Shown one piece after another: positions 41,453-51,419 of a DNA stretch of 64,000 bases. The DNA is from Thermodesulforhabdaceae bacterium (lineage in GTDB: Bacteria; Desulfobacterota; Syntrophobacteria; Syntrophobacterales; Thermodesulforhabdaceae). Position numbers and translations under genes: made by a program. Every line of letters starts with the position of its first letter. The first letter of the stretch is position 1. Below the pieces are notes generated by a model that saw only the letters and a list, made by a program, of their open reading frames with translations, searched no databases and had not been told where the DNA came from. The stretch is taken from assembly GCA_037482015.1 (NCBI GenBank), contig JBBFKT010000001.1, positions 525,854 through 589,853 on the forward strand. Reading direction: 5' to 3'.

Positions 41453-44092
41453 TTACAAAGCGACGGCTTCAGAATTTGTTTGAGCATATTCTGGCACAAC
41501 AGTCAAAGCGCCATTTTCTAATTTAACATGAACAGTGGCTCCTTCTCTTATTTCCCCAGATATTATCGCTCGAGCAAGCATCGTTTCAAGATTCCTCTGA
41601 ATGTATCGTCTCAAAGGTCTCGCACCGTAAACAGGATCGTAGCCAGATCGAGCTATAAACTCACGTGCCTCATCAGAGAGCACAAGCTTAATGTGCCTGT
41701 CTTTTAATCGTTTTGCAACATCTTCTATCATGAGATCAACTATTCGTTTGATCTCTTCAAGTTTAAGCGTTTTGAATAGAATCACATCATCGACTCGGTT
41801 GAGAAACTCTGGCCTGAAATGACGTCTAAGTTCCGCCATAACGCTATTTCTGACCGACTCGGGAATTTCTCCGTTCGGTGTTAGTCCTTCGGTCAAATAA
41901 TGTGAGCCGATATTACTGGTCATAATGATGATGGTGTTTTTGAAGTCCACCGTTCGCCCATGACCATCCGTAAGTCGTCCATCGTCAAGAATCTGAAGAA
42001 GCAGGTTGAATACATCCGGGTGAGCCTTTTCAATTTCATCAAATAGGATAACCGAGTAGGGCTTTCTTCTTACGGCTTCGGTCAATTGTCCTCCTTCTTC
42101 ATATCCGACATATCCCGGAGGAGCTCCAATGAGCCGTGAAACTGTGTGTTTCTCCATGTATTCGCTCATATCAATGCGAATCATGTTTTCTTCCGTGTCA
42201 AAAAGAGCTTCTGCTAGAGTTTTGGCGAGCTCGGTTTTACCCACGCCAGTAGGTCCCAGGAAAATGAACGATCCTATGGGTCTTCTAGGATCTTTGATGC
42301 CCGATCGAGCGCGAAGCACAGCATCTGCTACCAATTGTACAGCTTCATCCTGACCAACTACTCGTCTATGGAGCACTTCGTCAAGCTTTAACAGTTTGTC
42401 TCGCTCGGTTTCGATTAGCTTTGATACGGGAATGCCAGTCCACCTCGACACAATTTCAGCAATTTCTTCTTCGGTAACTTCTTCTCGTAGTAGCCTTTTG
42501 CCTTTCTGAATTTTAGCCAGTTCTTCCTCTTTCTGAACCAGTTTAGCTCTTAGTTCAGGAAGTCGTCCATGCTTAAGTTCTGCGACTTTGTTCAGATCAT
42601 ACTGCCTTTCCGCAATCTCTATCTCTCGATTGACTCTCTCAATTTCTTCTCTAAGCGCCTGCACTTCCTTGATTGCGTTCTTTTCAGATTCCCATTGAGA
42701 TTTCATCACATCAGCTTTTGCTCGCAGTTCGGCAAGCTCTTTCTGCACATTCTCGAGCCTTTCTTTGCTTGCTCGATCAGATTCTTTTTTGAGCGCTGTT
42801 TCTTCGATTTCAAGTTGCATGATTCGTCGCATAACTTCATCGAGTTCCGAAGGCATTGAATCTATTTCTGTGCGGATCATAGCGCAAGCTTCATCCACAA
42901 GGTCTATTGCCTTGTCCGGTAAGAAGCGGTCGGTAATGTATCTGTGAGAAAGAACCGCTGCTGCAACAAGAGCGCTGTCATGGATCTTAACGCCGTGGTG
43001 GACCTCATATCTTTCTTTAAGGCCTCGAAGTATTGAAATTGTATCTTCAACCGAAGGTTCTTCAACAAGAACAGGCTGGAAGCGTCTTTCTAAAGCGGGA
43101 TCCTTTTCAATGTATTTTCTATACTCATCCAGTGTAGTGGCTCCGATGCAGTGGAGTTCTCCTCTGGCAAGCATTGGTTTTAGCATGTTTCCAGCGTCTA
43201 TTGCGCCTTCAGCCTTTCCGGCTCCAACGATTGTGTGCAATTCGTCGATAAATAGGATGATTCTGCCTTCCGATTGCTTAATTTCCTGGAGAACGGCTTT
43301 GAGTCGCTCTTCGAATTCTCCTCTGTATTTGGCACCGGCTATTAGAGCGCCCATGTCGAGAGCAAAAATGTTTTTATCTTTTAGCCCTTCAGGGACGTCG
43401 CCCCGGACAATTCGGTGAGCAAGCCCTTCAACAATTGCCGTTTTACCGACCCCCGGTTCACCAATTAGCACGGGATTATTTTTGGTTTTTCGGCTGAGTA
43501 TGCGAATAACACGCCGTATTTCGGCATCACGACCTATTACGGGATCAAGCTTACCACTACGAGCTTCCTGAACAAGATCACGTCCATACTTCTGAAGAGC
43601 TTCGTAAGTAACTTCAGGCGTTGCGCTCGTCACTCTCTGGTGACCTCTTACGGCGGTGAGAGCCTTTAGGATCGCATCTTTAGTGACCCCGAACTCCTGA
43701 AGGATACGCCCTAGAGACGTAGTATTTCCTTCATCTGCGATAGCCATCAGGATGTGTTCTACCGAAATATATTCATCTTTTAACCTTTTGGCTTCTTCTT
43801 CGGCTTTTACCAGAAGTTTTCCAAGCCGATGAGTAAGATAGACTTTCCCCGGTTCAATACCAGGTCCGCTTACTCGCGGCTTCTTTTCCAGTTCTTTCTC
43901 TACTCTAGTTTTCAAAGCTTCAATCGGGACACCCATAATTTGCATAAATCTGGGAACAAGACCGTCTGTCTGCTCAAGCAGAGCCATAAACAGATGTTCG
44001 GCATCCACTTCCTGGTGCCCATAGCGAATGGCTTTGGTTTGAGCCTGTTGTATGGCTTCTTGGGATTTTATAGTAAATTTACTGATATCCAT
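41453..44092 (-). CDS. clpB: ATP-dependent disaggregase ClpB
   Basis: A Hsp100 disaggregase that extracts polypeptides from aggregates with DnaK. The 879 residues run: N-domain (1-145), first AAA+ module with GEPGVGKT, a long coiled-coil middle domain (about 400-530) typical of ClpB rather than ClpA/ClpC, second AAA+ module with [16 protein letters not shown], and a C-terminal small domain ([19 protein letters not shown]). There is no IGL/F tripeptide for ClpP. It is last in dnaK-cbpA-cbpM-clpB, a coherent heat-shock unit, and is preceded by a strong palindrome that may set its expression level. Confidence 0.96.
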
Positions 44093-44141
44093 TGTGAAAG
44101 TCCTCCTTACAGTCGTTTTTTAGGTAAAATTAAGATTGCAA

Positions 44142-44163
44142 ATTATCCCCGCAAGGGGATAAT
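44142..44163. promoter_or_regulatory. Perfect palindrome before clpB
   Basis: ATTATCCCC-GCAA-GGGGATAAT (44142-44163) lies 50 nt upstream of the clpB start. It has no T-run, so an operator, a processing hairpin or an RNA stability element is more likely than a terminator. Confidence 0.5.
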
Positions 44164-44236
44164 GCCCTTTTTAGTTAAGATTAGGTTTTAATTGATATTT
44201 TTTGGGAACTGGGAAGCTGCTTGGATTTATAAAGGG

Positions 44237-44579
44237 TTATAACACCGAACCTAGTTCATCAATCAATCGAGTAATCCGTTCTTCGAGAATTCTTACTCTT
44301 TCTTCCAATGCTTCAAGTCGGCTAAGAAGATCCAGAACAACACCAATTCCTGCGTAGTTGATGCCCAGTTCATTTCTTAAGCACGATTTTTCTCACTATA
44401 GGGACAGCAGATTCATCAAAAAGCCATGCCCCATCTGCAGGATCTTTTTCTACAGGATCTATAAGACCTAAACAGACAAATCGCTCGATAAGTTCTGGAT
44501 GTAAATCACACTGGGCAGCTATTTCTTCAATCTTCAGGTATGAACCTGACTTTGCGGACTTTACAAGATACGGTGTCAT
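44237..44579 (-). pseudogene. cbpM: Chaperone modulator CbpM, interrupted by a +1 frameshift
   Basis: CbpM binds the J-domain of CbpA and modulates it. The first frame (44579-44370) encodes 69 residues with the MerR-like start YLKIEEIAAQCDLHPELIER and ends at a TGA. Skipping one base near 44381 (codons GTG-C-TTA-AGA) continues as LRNELGINYAGIGVVLDLLS and then a coiled coil to a stop at 44237, giving the complete family layout and length of about 113 residues. The two halves are therefore one gene broken by one extra base. Pseudogenisation, assembly error, or programmed slippage at CTTA are all open. It sits between cbpA and clpB. Confidence 0.72.
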
Positions 44580-44664
44580 GATAGCATTACCTCCCGCTCC
44601 GGGATTCTTAAGTATTTAGTGCCGGCGTAGTGGCATACCGATGCCATTTTCTTTGGAGTAAGAC

Positions 44665-45609
44665 CTATCGAGGATTAAAAGTAGATACATCTTTTAACCT
44701 TTCGAATAACTCTCGTTCTTCTCGAGAAAGATGTTTAGGAACCATAATCTGCACGACAGCGTATAAATCACCCGGAGCACCCTTTGGGTTTGGCATTCCC
44801 TTGCCTCGAAGCCTCAACTTTTGCCCGCTTTGAGTTCCGGGAGGAATGCGAATTGTTACAGATCCTGCGATAGTTCCAACCGTTACGTCTCCACCGAGAG
44901 CTGCTTCCCAGGGAGTAATTGGAAGATTCATATACAAATCACGTCCTTCAAGTCGATATACAGGATGGGGCTCTATTTCCACCTTCAGATAAAGATCGCC
45001 ACTTCGGCCTCCTCCAATGCCCGGTTCTCCTTGACCGGCAAGACGAATCTTTTGCCCGGGCAGTATGCCAGCAGGGATTTTCACTTCGTAGGTTTTATTA
45101 CTGTTTGGCAAAGTGATAATCTTTTCAGCACCGTAATAGGCATCTTCGAGAGAAATTCTAATCGTCGCTTCCTGGTCTGCTCCATCACGGACTCTTGTAA
45201 ATCCGGATGTTCCGGTTCCGGCCTGACCTCTTCTCATGCCCCCAAAAAGCATTTCGAAGAAGTCGCTGAAGCCTGTTGAACCGCTTCCTTCAAAACCGAA
45301 TATATCTTCGAAAATCTTCCCTGTGCCCGGCCCAAATCCGAAGTGCACTTCCCAGCCTGGTGGTGGAGTAAAGTCCTGTCCGGCTTTCCAATTAGTTCCC
45401 AGTTGATCGTATCTTTTGCGCTTTTCTGGATCCTTGAGCACCTCGTAGGCTTCGTTGATTTCTTTAAACTTCTCTTCTGCTCCGGGTTCTTTGTTAACGT
45501 CCGGATGATATTTCCGCGCAAGCTTCCGGTATGCTCGCTGAATTTCCTCCTGAGTAGCCGTGCGAGGAACGCCAAGAATTTCGTAGTAATCTTTATATTT
45601 CACCGCCAT
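44665..45609 (-). CDS. cbpA: Type II DnaJ-like co-chaperone CbpA
   Basis: A 314-residue J-protein without a zinc-finger domain. The J-domain (5-70) contains the essential HPD in [11 protein letters not shown] Gly/Phe-rich linker follows (about 75-135), then two C-terminal beta-sandwich client domains (about 150-300, [20 protein letters not shown] and [19 protein letters not shown]). Lack of the CxxCxGxG repeats distinguishes it from DnaJ. It stimulates DnaK ATPase and delivers clients. It is 64 bp downstream of dnaK, separated by a perfect hairpin, and is followed by its presumed modulator cbpM. Confidence 0.92.
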
Positions 45610-45638
45610 TTCCGATTACTCCAAGGACCTAGGAAGTA

Positions 45639-45661
45639 GGGGTGTAGCGATACTACACCCC
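45639..45661. promoter_or_regulatory. Hairpin between dnaK and cbpA
   Basis: A perfect inverted repeat GGGGTGTAG-CGATA-CTACACCCC fills the dnaK-cbpA gap. It could be an RNA processing or partial termination point that makes dnaK more abundant than the downstream genes. A similar but shorter hairpin TGGCAT-ACCG-ATGCCA (44631-44646) lies between cbpA and cbpM. Confidence 0.5.
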
Positions 45662-45673
45662 GCAATTTTGGGA

Positions 45674-47578
45674 TTATCGTTCTCTGAATTCAGCGTCTAT
45701 TACGTCGTCACTTCCAGAAGCCTTGCGCCCCCCAGCTTCGGCTCCACCGGCTCCACCGTGCTGCTGGGATGTGCTCTGCTGATATGCCGCTGCTGCGATC
45801 ATGTGGAGAGCCTGCTGGATGTCGCTGTTGAGTTGCTTGAATCGCTCAGCGCTTGTGCTTTCATCGTTAAGAGCTGCTTTAGCGTCCTCGATGAGTTTTT
45901 CACATCGGCTCTTTTCGTGAGGTGGCACTTTGTCTCCGAGTTCTTTGAGTGTCTTTTCGAGTTGATATGCGAGAGAATCCGTCTGGTTTTTCGCCTCGAC
46001 TCTTTCTTTTCGTTTACGGTCCTCTTCAGCATACTGTTCGGCTTCTCGGAGCATTCGTTCGATTTCGCCCTTATCCAGGTTCGTAGATTCCGTAATAGTC
46101 ACGGTCTGTTCTTTACCAGTTGCCATGTCCTTAGCTGTCACCTTGAGGATGCCGTTTGCGTCAGTGTCGAAGGTGACCTTAATCTGAGGCACACCTCTTG
46201 GTGCAGGCGGGATACCCTCAAGGCGGAATCTGCCGAGCACGCGGTTGTCTCGAGCCATATGACGTTCACCCTGGAGCACAACTATATCGACGGCTGTCTG
46301 ATTGTCTTCGGCGGTTGTAAAGATTTCTTCACGTCGGCAAGGTATTGTTGTGTTGCGCTCTATGAGTTTGGTCATGACGCCACCGAGAGTTTCTATACCG
46401 AGAGAAAGTGGTGTGACATCGAGGAGCACAACGTCTTTTACCTCGCCTTTAATTATTGCCGCCTGAATCGCTGCTCCAACTGCAACAACTTCGTCAGGGT
46501 TTACGCTCATGTTTGGTTCTTTGCCGCCGGTGAGTCGCTTTACCAGGGCTTGCACCGCCGGAATACGGGTCGAACCGCCCACGAGAATAACCTCATCTAT
46601 ATCCTTTTCGGTAAGGTTAGCATCAGCAAGAGCCTGTTTGACTGGTCCCATGCAGCGTTCAATAAGATCTGCAACTAGCGATTCGAATTTGGCTCGAGTA
46701 ATCTTCTTTACGAGATGCTTGGGTCCCGTTGCGTCGGCGGTGATGAACGGGAGATTGATTTCCGTCTCCATCACCGTGGAGAGTTCGCACTTTGCTTTTT
46801 CAGCTGCTTCGTATAGACGCTGTAGAGCCTGACGGTCATTTCGAAGATCTATCCCGGTGTCTTTTTTGAACTCGTCAGCTAGCCAATCGACTATTCGTTT
46901 GTCAAAGTCGTCGCCTCCCAGGTGTGTGTCACCGGCTGTTGAACGAACTTCACATACGCCGTCTCCAACATCGAGAATGGAAACGTCAAAGGTTCCACCG
47001 CCAAGGTCGAAAACAAGCACCGTTTCGTTCTTTTTCTTTTCTAGACCATAAGCGAGAGCAGCGGCCGTGGGCTCGTTGATGATTCTCAAAACCTTGAGCC
47101 CGGCTATTTCTCCCGCATTTTTGGTAGCTTGACGCTGAGCGTCATTGAAGTAAGCCGGCACAGTGATAACAGCTTCGGTTATTTTTTCGCCAAGGAACTT
47201 TGATGCATCTTCAACCAGCTTTCTTAGCACCTGAGCGGAAACTTCCTCAGGAGCTACAAGTTTTTCTCGGATGTCGAATCTAACAGCATCGTTGGGACCC
47301 TTAACAACCTTGTAAGGCACCATCTTGGATTCTTCTTCTACCTCATCCCAGCGCCTTCCTATGAAACGCTTTGCAGAATATATAGTAGCTGCCGGGTTCA
47401 GGATCGACTGTCTTTTTGCAATTTGTCCGACAAGTCTCTGACCATCTTCAGTAAATGCCACAACTGAAGGGGTTGTTCTGGATCCCTCGGCATTAGGAAT
47501 TACTGTAGCTTTGCCGTTTTCCCACACGGCAATAACAGAGTTAGTAGTTCCCAAATCAATACCTACCGCCTTTCCCAT
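45674..47578 (-). CDS. dnaK: Molecular chaperone DnaK (Hsp70)
   Basis: The cytoplasmic Hsp70. The 634-residue protein starts [20 protein letters not shown], has the ATPase signatures [14 protein letters not shown] and [14 protein letters not shown], the linker [15 protein letters not shown], a substrate-binding domain, a helical lid and a Gly/Ser-rich tail ending [10 protein letters not shown], the common DnaK C-terminus. GGAGG stands about 10 nt before the ATG. It leads the operon dnaK-cbpA-cbpM-clpB; grpE and hrcA are not here. Confidence 0.98.
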
Positions 47579-47977
47579 TATTATCCTGCCTCCTTTTTAT
47601 CCTGTTTTTTTGTCTTAAGATATTCTGGGCAACGCCCCATTGCCCTTTTTGCCTGTTTGGCTAGCTTAGAAATTAATCATGGATTTTTAAAATGCTAGTG
47701 GTTGCGAGTTAAAAAGGCAAAATTTTTGCAAGGTTATACCGCAAATTTTTAATTCGTAAGGACACTCGATTTTATTATGAACAAACCGCTATGTGTGCCA
47801 ACTTCAGGTTTTCATCTTCAATTGTGAGCCTATTCTGGGGAGATCTTTATAATACCCCGCAGCCACAAAAACTGGGCTATCTTTGAGTAGTATTGATTCT
47901 AGCTATTTTTTTTGATATCCGAAAATTAATATCATTTAGCTTTTTGCCATTAACCTAATAACATGGGGGAGATGGGT
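47579..47977. promoter_or_regulatory. Divergent intergenic region between dnaK and the cytochrome gene
   Basis: About 400 bp without a gene. The only clear structure is an inverted repeat GGGCAA-CGCCCCA-TTGCCC (47627-47645), about 50 nt upstream of dnaK. No CIRCE element and no convincing heat-shock promoter on the dnaK strand were seen. The half next to the cytochrome is A+T-rich and unstructured by eye. Confidence 0.4.
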
Positions 47978-50575
47978 ATGGCTAAAAACTTCAAGTATGC
48001 TTTTGCGCTGAAATTTTTTTTAGCTTTTTTTGTTATGACTACAGGTCTCTACGCAAGGGATTGGGTTCATTCCCCTTTCTTCCTTCGGACAGAAGATGGA
48101 CAAATAATAAATCCTCTAACAGGTGAAAATGCCAATCTGCCTTACAGTTCTCGCCAGACCTGTGGAGCTTGTCACAATTACGATGAAATAGTGAAAGGAT
48201 ATCATTTTCAGCAGGGATGGGATCGCATTAAAGACGATTTTAATCCCAAAAAACCGTGGGTTCTCTCCGACGGAATGATGGGTAAATTCTGACCTCCTTC
48301 TTTCCGCCAGTTGGCGAAAAAACATAATAAGACTCCGGATGAAATTGATCTGACAGTATTTGAATGGGTGAGCGTTGGTCCGACGGATCCCAAGCAAATA
48401 GGGCAGCCGGGTTGTGGTGGCTGTCACCCTGGTGGGGGAGGATTGGAATTTGACAGAGATGGAAAACGTTATGATAAGAGACTTAAAGAAGAGCCAAACC
48501 TGGTCAATACTCTTGATGGGGACTACTATAAAAGCAAGTGGGATAAGTCTGGTGTTGTGGAAGCGGACTGTCTCTTGTGCCATCTTCCAGGGTATAATTT
48601 TGTAGAGCGTAACAAACAACTTAAGATGTGGAATTATAAGTGGTCTTCAACTGCGTCGTCCGGCATTGGGCAAGTAAAGGGATTTGTAAGGGAGGGACAA
48701 TCTCCAACGGTTACCTATAATAAACGTCTTTTTAACGAAGATGGACAAATCGTTTTGCCCATTTCATATCCACCTCCTTCAGAGAATTGTAATTTTTGTC
48801 ATGGTATTTCTGATGCCAAGAAAAGAGGTTTTTCATGGAATGACCGAAAAAATCACGACGTCCACAATGCTAGAGGGCTTCATTGTGCTGACTGTCATCC
48901 GGCAATAGATGATCCCCAAAAAGGGGTTAAGAAGATCAATCATCAGTTTGCAAAAGGTAATGAGAATGTATCCACTGTTAGAGATGATTTTGATAATACG
49001 ATAATGACCTGCAGGGAGTGCCACCAGAAGGGATATATAGGTGCTCCACGTCCATCTCATCTTTCCATACGACCTAATCATCTGGAAAAGCTTTCCTGTG
49101 AGTTTTGTCATATTCCGGTTCTTCATATTGCGGCTGGAGAAGGATTTGATGTTACTACAGGCAATATGGTTAATTACCCCAAAATAAACTTAAAAGATCC
49201 TGCAAATTCACCCAAATCTATTGGTGAATACTTCGACTGGCATCCTCGTTACGGAAGGATAAAAAGCGGTTTGCTGGCGCCAGTGAATCCTCTACTGGGA
49301 ATTGTCTATACGAATCTTGACAGTGACGGAATCTATTATCCTCTCTTCGCCCGAGAAATTAAGAAAGCCTATGAAAAAATTAAAGACACTTTGAAACCAT
49401 CTAATCCACAACGGCCAGAATTACACACACCTGAACAAATCAAACTCATGTTGACCTCTCTTACTGAGACACTGAAAGGGAATGCTCGCTTCCATCAGAT
49501 TAGGCCCAACTACCATAAGGGTGGGAAAATTTATTATTTGAATGATCAAGGTGATGTTGTGGTTGAAGAAGATCATACCTGGGCAGCACATGCTGAAGGG
49601 TTTAATATTAACCACAATGTTGCGCCTGCTGGGATGGCTTTGGGTGCTAGAGGCTGTGCTGATTGCCATTCGAGCGAATCTCACGTTTTCAAGGGACAAG
49701 TTGTGACAGATCTTTTTGGACCGGATGGTAAGCCTGTGACAATAAATTCGGGAAGACTTATCGGATGTTCTCCCTGGGTTTTTGCTTTGAACCAATTTCA
49801 TCAACTGTATCTTACTCCTTATGTAAGTATCTTTATATTGCTCATTGTCTTTGCGTTAGTGCTTCATTACACGGGGCAGGGTCCAAAGGTTGCCGATTTC
49901 TATGATGCTCCTGCTACAATTGAGTGGTTTTCTCTTGCTGAAAGATGGACTCATCTGTTTAGGCTTGTGTCTTTCTTAATTTTAGCTTTTACTGGATACA
50001 TCTTCTTCTATAACAACGTCACCCTTCTCAGAATGTCTTTCGGAACTCCCAAAACTGCTGTAGTTGTGCACTGGGTAGCAGGGATTGTGTTTCTGATTGC
50101 TTCTGGCGTGTCTTTGAAGCTCTGGGCTTCTTATGCTCGCTTTGCTCCGTATGATAAGGAATGGCTTGAGAAAAAAGGCGGATATATTGGTGGCAAAGAG
50201 GTGGAAGTTCCTGCTGGCAGGATGAACGCCGGGCAAAAAATATTCTTCTGGTTTACGACGGTTCTCAGTGTGATTATGGGTATCACGGGTGTTCCGCTCA
50301 TATTCAAGACAAGTCTTCCATTGAGCCTGAGTTGTCTCTTATCAACGATACACGGTTTCTTTGCAGTTGTTTTCTTTGCTGGTGTTATTGCTCATGCCTA
50401 TCTTGGCACTATCGCCAATCCAGGGACCTGGCGAATACTGGTGGACGGAAAGGTTAGCAAAACCTGGATTAAAAAGCATCATTCCGTTTGGTATAAGGAG
50501 CATGTTGAAAAAGATGAATCTACGCCAAATAAAGATACCAAGGAATCCAGTAACGATAATTCAATATCTTCTTGA
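47978..50575 (+). CDS. Selenocysteine-containing multiheme cytochrome c/b fusion (CbcL-like)
   Basis: An in-frame TGA at 48290-48292 splits this frame in standard translation. Read as selenocysteine it gives 865 residues: signal peptide (1-26), eight CxxCH haem c sites starting at C62, C146, C198, C271, C303, C345, C374 and C560, Sec105 in DGMMGKF-U-PPSFRQLAK, then from about 613 a multi-helix cytochrome b domain of the FdnI/HydC type with conserved histidines. This architecture matches CbcL, the inner-membrane quinol-linked cytochrome of metal-reducing Geobacter. Haem 1 and the export signal lie before the TGA and everything else after, so neither part makes sense alone. A GU-tipped stem-loop stands where SelB expects it. 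Start ATG 47978 follows GGGGGAG by 6 nt. It is probably a periplasm-facing membrane electron-transfer protein; partner and acceptor are unknown. Confidence 0.85.
48290..48322 (+). promoter_or_regulatory. Candidate bacterial SECIS element
   Basis: Directly after the TGA, the RNA can fold CGCC-AGUU-GGCG (48305-48316). The stem extends by three U-A pairs below a C-A mismatch (48301-48303 with 48318-48320). The loop exposes a GU 18 nt after the UGA, within the 16-37 nt window known for SelB-dependent SECIS loops. It is seen by eye and not thermodynamically tested. Confidence 0.65.
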
Positions 50576-50612: not shown

Positions 50613-50688
50613 GGCGAGGTAGCTCAGACGGTAGAGCAGTGGACTGAAAATCCTCGTGTCCCCAGTTCGATTCTGGGCCTCGCCACCA
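50613..50688 (+). tRNA. tRNA-Phe (GAA)
   Basis: Acceptor GGCGAGG/CCTCGCC, D-stem GCTC/GAGC, anticodon arm GTGGA-CTGAAAA-TCCTC (anticodon GAA, with one T-T mismatch in the stem), T-arm CCCAG-TTCGATT-CTGGG and an encoded CCA. It is a full-length, apparently functional gene. Confidence 0.95.
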
Positions 50689-50810: not shown

Positions 50811-51419
50811 ATGAAGATTAAAGAAGTTGTGCATCATTCTGAAGACGAACTGATCTCTAGGCTCAGGGAAGTTAGATTACTAAAAAAACCGGATGTTCTT
50901 ATCTACAAAAATTGCACAATATCGCTTGAACGAATTTCCACCGATTGGCTTTATCCTACCCAGCGTTACGTGCTTATACAGGAATTAGAGAAAGTTCGTA
51001 ACCTTCAATGGGCTTTGAAAGAACTTGGTTATGATATGTTCAACCTTAATGGTTTTCTGGAATTGTGGATGGAGGGAAAAGACCAGCCTGTAACTCTACT
51101 TCCTCCCGTGGTGGAAGAATCGATAGAAGCTAATGGATCCGTTGTGGTTCTCATAAATGACGGTATGCATAGACTTTATCTTGCTCGCTCTCAGTGGGTG
51201 ATTCCACAGGTCGTTTATGTTAGGGGAATTCCTAAGGAGTATCCATACTATGCCTATCCAAACCCCCGCCAGTGGGAAGGTATTGATGTTATTGATGAAC
51301 TTCCTCCAGGTTATATAAAGAAATGGCACAGGATTGCGAATTATCACAGTCTTTATAGAAATTTCAATTCAGCCTTTTCATCGGTAGGTGCACCTAGAGG
51401 AAGGTTCACCAAGGAGTGA
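50811..51419 (+). CDS. Hypothetical protein with a ParB/sulfiredoxin-like motif
   Basis: A 202-residue soluble protein I do not recognise with certainty. The stretch VVVLINDGMHRLYLARSQWV (110-129) resembles the DG-HR core of ParB/Srx-fold nucleotide-binding domains, preceded by a helical region with no membrane segment. An AGGAAAG lies before the ATG. The gene ends in a stop formed at the junction with a mobile repeat: the original frame would have ended ACC-AAG-GAG-TAG, and the insertion supplies TGA instead, leaving the protein unchanged. Neighbours (tRNA-Phe, ddl) give no hint of function. Confidence 0.6.
   Translation: MKIKEVVHHSEDELISRLREVRLLKKPDVLIYKNCTISLERISTDWLYPTQRYVLIQELEKVRNLQWALKELGYDMFNLNGFLELWMEGKDQPVTLLPPVVEESIEANGSVVVLINDGMHRLYLARSQWVIPQVVYVRGIPKEYPYYAYPNPRQWEGIDVIDELPPGYIKKWHRIANYHSLYRNFNSAFSSVGAPRGRFTKE

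Follow-up and report, generated by a model that had tools for sequence, protein, structure and literature searches.

Does the in-frame TGA at position 48290 of the window (the whole 64,000-nucleotide stretch of Thermodesulforhabdaceae DNA analysed here) end a gene or encode an amino acid within one, and, if the latter, what kind of enzyme does that gene specify? A mechanical open reading frame call splits the region in two (47963-48292 and 48311-50575), and direct reading places the TGA (48290-48292) at residue 105, in frame with both parts, just as the initial annotation had described when it proposed a selenocysteine there. Read through, the gene (47978-50575, + strand) would encode a selenoprotein of 865 residues, in which an octahaem cytochrome c domain continues into a cytochrome b domain, and terminates at an ordinary TGA (50573-50575). 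The TTG at 48311, mechanically the start of the second frame, is Leu112 within an RNA hairpin and is no start codon. The order of parts given earlier, with an export signal and one haem motif before the TGA and seven motifs and a membrane cytochrome b after it, proved correct, and the features are as follows.

47965 to 47971, + strand: ribosome-binding site GGGGGAG, 6 nt 5' of the ATG at 47978, read directly
47978 to 48055, + strand: predicted signal peptide, residues 1-26, from sequence features (hydrophobic segment 8-26)
48161 to 48175, + strand: haem motif 1, CGACH (62-66), invariant
48290 to 48292, + strand: UGA, predicted Sec105; UGA in orthologues, Cys in distant relatives
48302 to 48319, + strand: predicted bacterial SECIS hairpin, from folding, covariation and synonymous constraint
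48413 to 48427, + strand: haem motif 2, CGGCH (146-150), putative catalytic haem from the analogy with OTR, the Shewanella oneidensis octahaem cytochrome
48569 to 48583, + strand: haem motif 3 (198-202)
48788 to 48802, + strand: haem motif 4 (271-275)
48812 to 48823, + strand: D279 and K282, aligned by profile with OTR Asp150 and Lys153
48884 to 48898, + strand: haem motif 5 (303-307)
49010 to 49024, + strand: haem motif 6 (345-349)
49097 to 49111, + strand: haem motif 7 (374-378)
49655 to 49669, + strand: haem motif 8 (560-564)
49919 to 50509, + strand: FdnI-like dihaem cytochrome b domain (648-844) with His659, 698, 792 and 806, from TIGR01583, PF01292, 1KQF chain C and conservation

The alignment of homologues that the initial annotation had proposed as a check returned UGA or Cys at the residue-105 column. 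Scanning genome contigs gave 18 loci, and TGA stands at this codon in all 16 of the other orthologous loci that cover the site. These span Desulfobacterota, a Bacillota isolate and a metagenome-assembled genome labelled Eisenbacteria; the isolates among them are Fundidesulfovibrio agrisoli, Desulfoluna limicola and Ammonifex thiophilus (Bacillota). The TGA is the sole internal stop in the orthologues (a second stop counted for locus L029 is its terminal one, included by alignment overrun), and UGA is also present in seven further genome matches of the same subfamily, some of which duplicate the first set. Among the wider homologues, which a profile search across the phylum (395 genomes) brought in, eight distant ones have TGT or TGC at the column (L093, L094, L099, L102, L105, L106, L109 and L110), and the octahaem-only relatives L103, L104, L107 and L108 have Ser, Phe or Gln instead of Sec or Cys. 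When the three column states are mapped on a tree inferred, with the column left out, from 35 octahaem domains, four changes are required; L103 groups with the Sec form L005, suggesting a loss of the Sec/Cys site in L103.

The UGA is followed by a hairpin whose position agrees with that of the E. coli fdhF SECIS. Its core stem, CGCC paired with GGCG (48305-48308 with 48313-48316), starts 13 nt past the UGA, and its loop, AGUU (48309-48312, 17-20 nt past the UGA), contains a G, as expected of a bacterial SECIS; the hairpin is predicted in most orthologues. All four core pairs form in each of 36 distinct sequences, much more distant giant proteins included, with a loop consensus of AG(U/G/A)U. 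The next pair forms in 34 of the 36, in compensatory U-A, C-G and G-C versions (the window gene has C-A), and the outer two pairs are kept in only 24. Residues 108-114 are the least synonymously variable segment of the gene, with Gln111 (CAG), Leu112 (TTG) and Ala113 (GCG) each encoded by an invariant codon (15 of 15). Most Sec members with a two-residue insertion retain the hairpin slightly further downstream; in the Cys homologues a comparable hairpin was not found, and the codons vary there. Among known RNA families searched at the locus, only tRNA-Phe was above threshold.

The selenocysteine machinery, another check proposed at the outset, was recovered in part: selA, selB and selD are present in the host genome, and selC was found only in relatives. 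The host selD (genome G000, contig C1, 873580-874503, locus L049) itself carries an in-frame TGA, in the context KAAG-U-AAKIGPG, and is a predicted selenoprotein. In the 95%-complete host assembly, selC was not found by Rfam, by ARAGORN around selA, selB and selD, by three tRNA-like patterns or by a DNA search with the selC locus of a sister genome; a clear tRNA-SeC did turn up in every one of the four nearest relatives examined, one of which is congeneric, and an assembly gap is the simplest reason for its absence from the host assembly. The missing selC, along with the two open reading frames given by a standard gene caller, is what one would cite for a pseudogene, a sequencing error or two genes parted by a genuine stop. 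Such a reading has to contend with a TGA kept in 16 further loci, isolates included, with constraint at the RNA level and a hairpin, and with a downstream frame that, taken alone, would have no export signal, which haem c attachment requires; we reject it on the TGA conservation and the SECIS, and give it scarcely any chance. The conserved UGA, the Cys homologues and the hairpin together bear out the selenocysteine that was first proposed: from these comparisons UGA105 almost certainly encodes selenocysteine, and its decoding would be helped by the SECIS hairpin downstream.

As for the kind of enzyme, the octahaem part exceeds no curated NCBIfam cut-off, and the short Pfam Cytochrome_C7 model is the only one that it passes; against TIGR04315, the OTR model, it scores 26.9-30.3 bits, the cut-off being 375. 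An AlphaFold2 model of it, built on 35 sequences (mean pLDDT 84.6), has one clear match in the PDB, the Shewanella oneidensis octahaem cytochrome 1SP3 (Foldseek E 9e-6, Z 10.4); the remaining structural matches, to proteasomes and others, have Z of at most 4.0 and are meaningless. Comparison with a profile of the OTR alignment gave a 99.4% match and paired Asp150 and Lys153 of OTR (1SP3 residue numbers counted off the alignment) with D279 and K282, both invariant in 15 of 15 full-length orthologues. Lys153 is reportedly the distal ligand of OTR haem 2, in work by Mowat et al. from 2004 whose title speaks of 'novel heme ligation'. Sec105, usually preceded by an aromatic residue in this family, falls in the segment that separates haem motifs 1 and 2, where OTR has Cys64; hhalign in local and global modes did not fix the pairing of the two columns and the spacers to haem motif 2 differ in length, and we therefore infer the equivalence of the two sites from topology.

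The initial annotation was also right in seeing a multihaem c/b fusion, the membrane part being of the FdnI type. The C-terminal domain scores 125.8 bits against TIGR01583 (formate dehydrogenase gamma; cut-off 115.85), the only NCBIfam model over cut-off, and PF01292 matches as well; the stretch of FdnI-type cytochrome b covers the C-terminal 200 residues. Residues H659, H698, H792 and H806 align with the haem-b histidines of 1KQF chain C; H698 and H792 are conserved in 15 of 15 orthologues and H806 in 13, and the four are kept except in shorter Desulfoluna and Desulfobulbaceae proteins.

Because Sec105, like Cys64, is placed between the first two haem motifs, and because the counterpart of Lys153 is invariant, Sec105 would line the pocket of the catalytic haem, and the earlier suggestion of a selenocysteine at an active-site haem fits the evidence. 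We consider the protein likely to be a selenoprotein and a quinone-linked, one-chain octahaem oxidoreductase, with Sec in the pocket of a Lys-ligated catalytic haem and perhaps a sulfur or selenium compound as its substrate. The product would be exported and would bind eight c-haems in an OTR-type fold, while the FdnI-like dihaem cytochrome b, judging by its family, would anchor the protein and exchange electrons with the quinone pool. Electrons would then pass through the c-haems between the b domain and haem 2, and catalysis would take place at haem 2, with Sec105 joining the substrate chemistry as nucleophile or substrate ligand.

The initial annotation had called the protein CbcL-like and assigned to it the transfer of electrons toward extracellular acceptors, in which case Sec105 might ligate a haem or act as a redox gate within a pure conduit from quinol to periplasmic or extracellular acceptors. 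The layout, a multihaem c domain plus a dihaem cytochrome b, is indeed that of CbcL, and many multihaem proteins of such bacteria serve extracellular electron transfer. The likeness does not extend beyond architecture, however: CbcL has nine low-spin bis-His c-haems (PMC9129911), whereas the window protein combines eight motifs with the OTR fold and the counterparts of Asp150 and Lys153, so that a catalytic pocket is likelier than passive transfer. A strictly kept Sec with Cys substitutes likewise points to chemistry, and we regard a pure conduit as quite improbable.

The genomic neighbourhood bears on the substrate of the proposed oxidoreductase. The cytochrome gene is a lone gene, flanked by a divergent dnaK-like gene (45674-47578, - strand) and a tRNA-Phe gene (50613-50688, + strand), and has no sulfur-related or otherwise informative neighbour in the window. 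ClpB-like, DnaJ-like and DnaK-like genes, named from sequence appearance, lie in a row at 41453-47578 on the - strand, and directly after the tRNA-Phe gene a 202-residue protein with a ParB CE domain (PF24392) is encoded at 50811-51419. Elsewhere, three close orthologues have DsrE-family genes nearby, and three wider-family relatives adjoin genes for TauE-type exporters. These neighbours, and the example of TsdA, whose Cys at a c-type haem takes up thiosulfate and forms adducts with it (PMC6879331), weakly suggest a sulfur substrate. On this weak evidence the likeliest substrate is a compound of sulfur or selenium, and nitrite, hydroxylamine or selenite as substrates, like a purely electron-transferring role, are possible. 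According to the title of work by Atkinson from 2007, S. oneidensis OTR reportedly reduces nitrite and hydroxylamine, and an enzyme that reduces or oxidises such nitrogen compounds, or selenite, in place of sulfur compounds would be in keeping with this. The Geobacter cytochrome ExtKL (NF040886), multihaem, c-type and predicted to contain Sec, has moreover been linked to selenite reduction (PMC5877670). Such an enzyme is nonetheless somewhat unlikely, given that the informative neighbours are sulfur-related.

The same kind of site occurs in true OTRs. A TIGR04315 search covered 247 genomes, 42 of which have a match over the cut-off, and many of these matches carry one in-frame TGA. In the 30 OTR loci that were read, the TGA stands in for an otherwise invariant Cys (Cys64 in 1SP3, by alignment) that lies a short way upstream of haem motif 2 and belongs to the motif N[NS][FY][C/U]. 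The UGA-type true OTRs (L133, L136, L137, L141, L143, L146, L147, L149-L154, L156 and L158) have a hairpin of their own directly after the TGA, of one of two types, CUGGUGC-AGGU-GCACCAG or a GCAACGA/UCGUUGC form. A published table includes a TIGR04315 selenoprotein row, marked as GenBank annotated (PMC13188914).

Other relatives are far larger. Large octahaem proteins of ~750 to more than 1350 residues, many of 1170-1390 (L111-L116, L119, L121, L123-L127 and L130), share the W/Y-U-PPS.RQ.A site and the SECIS with the window gene and contain large insertions; in the three that were scanned, no family model was over its cut-off. The read-through frames of L117 and L118 contain 16 CxxCH motifs; behind the Sec-type octahaem domain lies another multihaem region, which matches weakly.

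An entire group of multihaem enzymes thus appears to have selenium built in. We propose tentatively, stopping short of calling it probable, that OTR-fold octahaem cytochromes (true OTRs, the cytochrome b fusion, the ~1350-residue giants and the 16-haem forms) share a Sec/Cys site beside a Lys-ligated catalytic c-haem, an active-site type so far undescribed that would pair a selenol with haem iron in respiratory chemistry. Catalytic Sec is known chiefly from thiol-redox folds, or else as a metal ligand to Mo, W or Ni; if the proposal is true, several subfamilies of respiratory cytochromes would keep a Sec close to a catalytic c-haem, and selenium chemistry would have a setting unlike those. We know of no settled physiological role for OTR, and a Sec/Cys site near its catalytic c-haem would offer a handle on that enzyme.

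The initial annotation had seen here a new place for selenium. Sec in multihaem cytochromes has precedent, both in ExtKL and in the OTR row noted above (PMC13188914, which also cites ExtKL as a Sec cytochrome); it is for the cytochrome b fusion family that no description was found. A literature search that took in few subscription journals returned no account of this family, and none of the giants or the Sec/Cys site that they have in common with it and with OTRs; a search on octaheme or CbcL with selenocysteine returned no description of the family, and NCBIfam has no model for it. Annotation pipelines truncate such genes at the UGA and may label what is left 'formate dehydrogenase gamma'; sulfate-reducing and related bacteria may therefore contain a quinone-linked enzyme that is widely overlooked.

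Among known systems, OTR (S. oneidensis, 1SP3; TIGR04315) has, like the window protein, eight CxxCH motifs in matching order, the same fold, and a Cys or UGA/Sec between haem motifs 1 and 2, from which the window protein differs in having a longer stretch from Sec to haem motif 2, a fused cytochrome b and another SECIS sequence. FdnI resembles the C-terminus, a dihaem cytochrome b with all four haem-b histidines; unlike it, the window protein is fused to an octahaem domain, and no formate dehydrogenase subunits adjoin it within the window. CbcL of Geobacter sulfurreducens has a comparable periplasmic c domain and membrane b domain, but Sec is unmentioned in PMC9129911, and membership is rejected on haem number and fold. 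ExtKL, unlike the window protein, has five haems and no cytochrome b part, and membership in its family is likewise rejected, NF040886 being absent from the matches of the window protein at E up to 1. TsdA, a thiosulfate dehydrogenase/tetrathionate reductase, is dihaem, carries Cys in place of Sec and is unrelated, so that it provides a functional analogy only.
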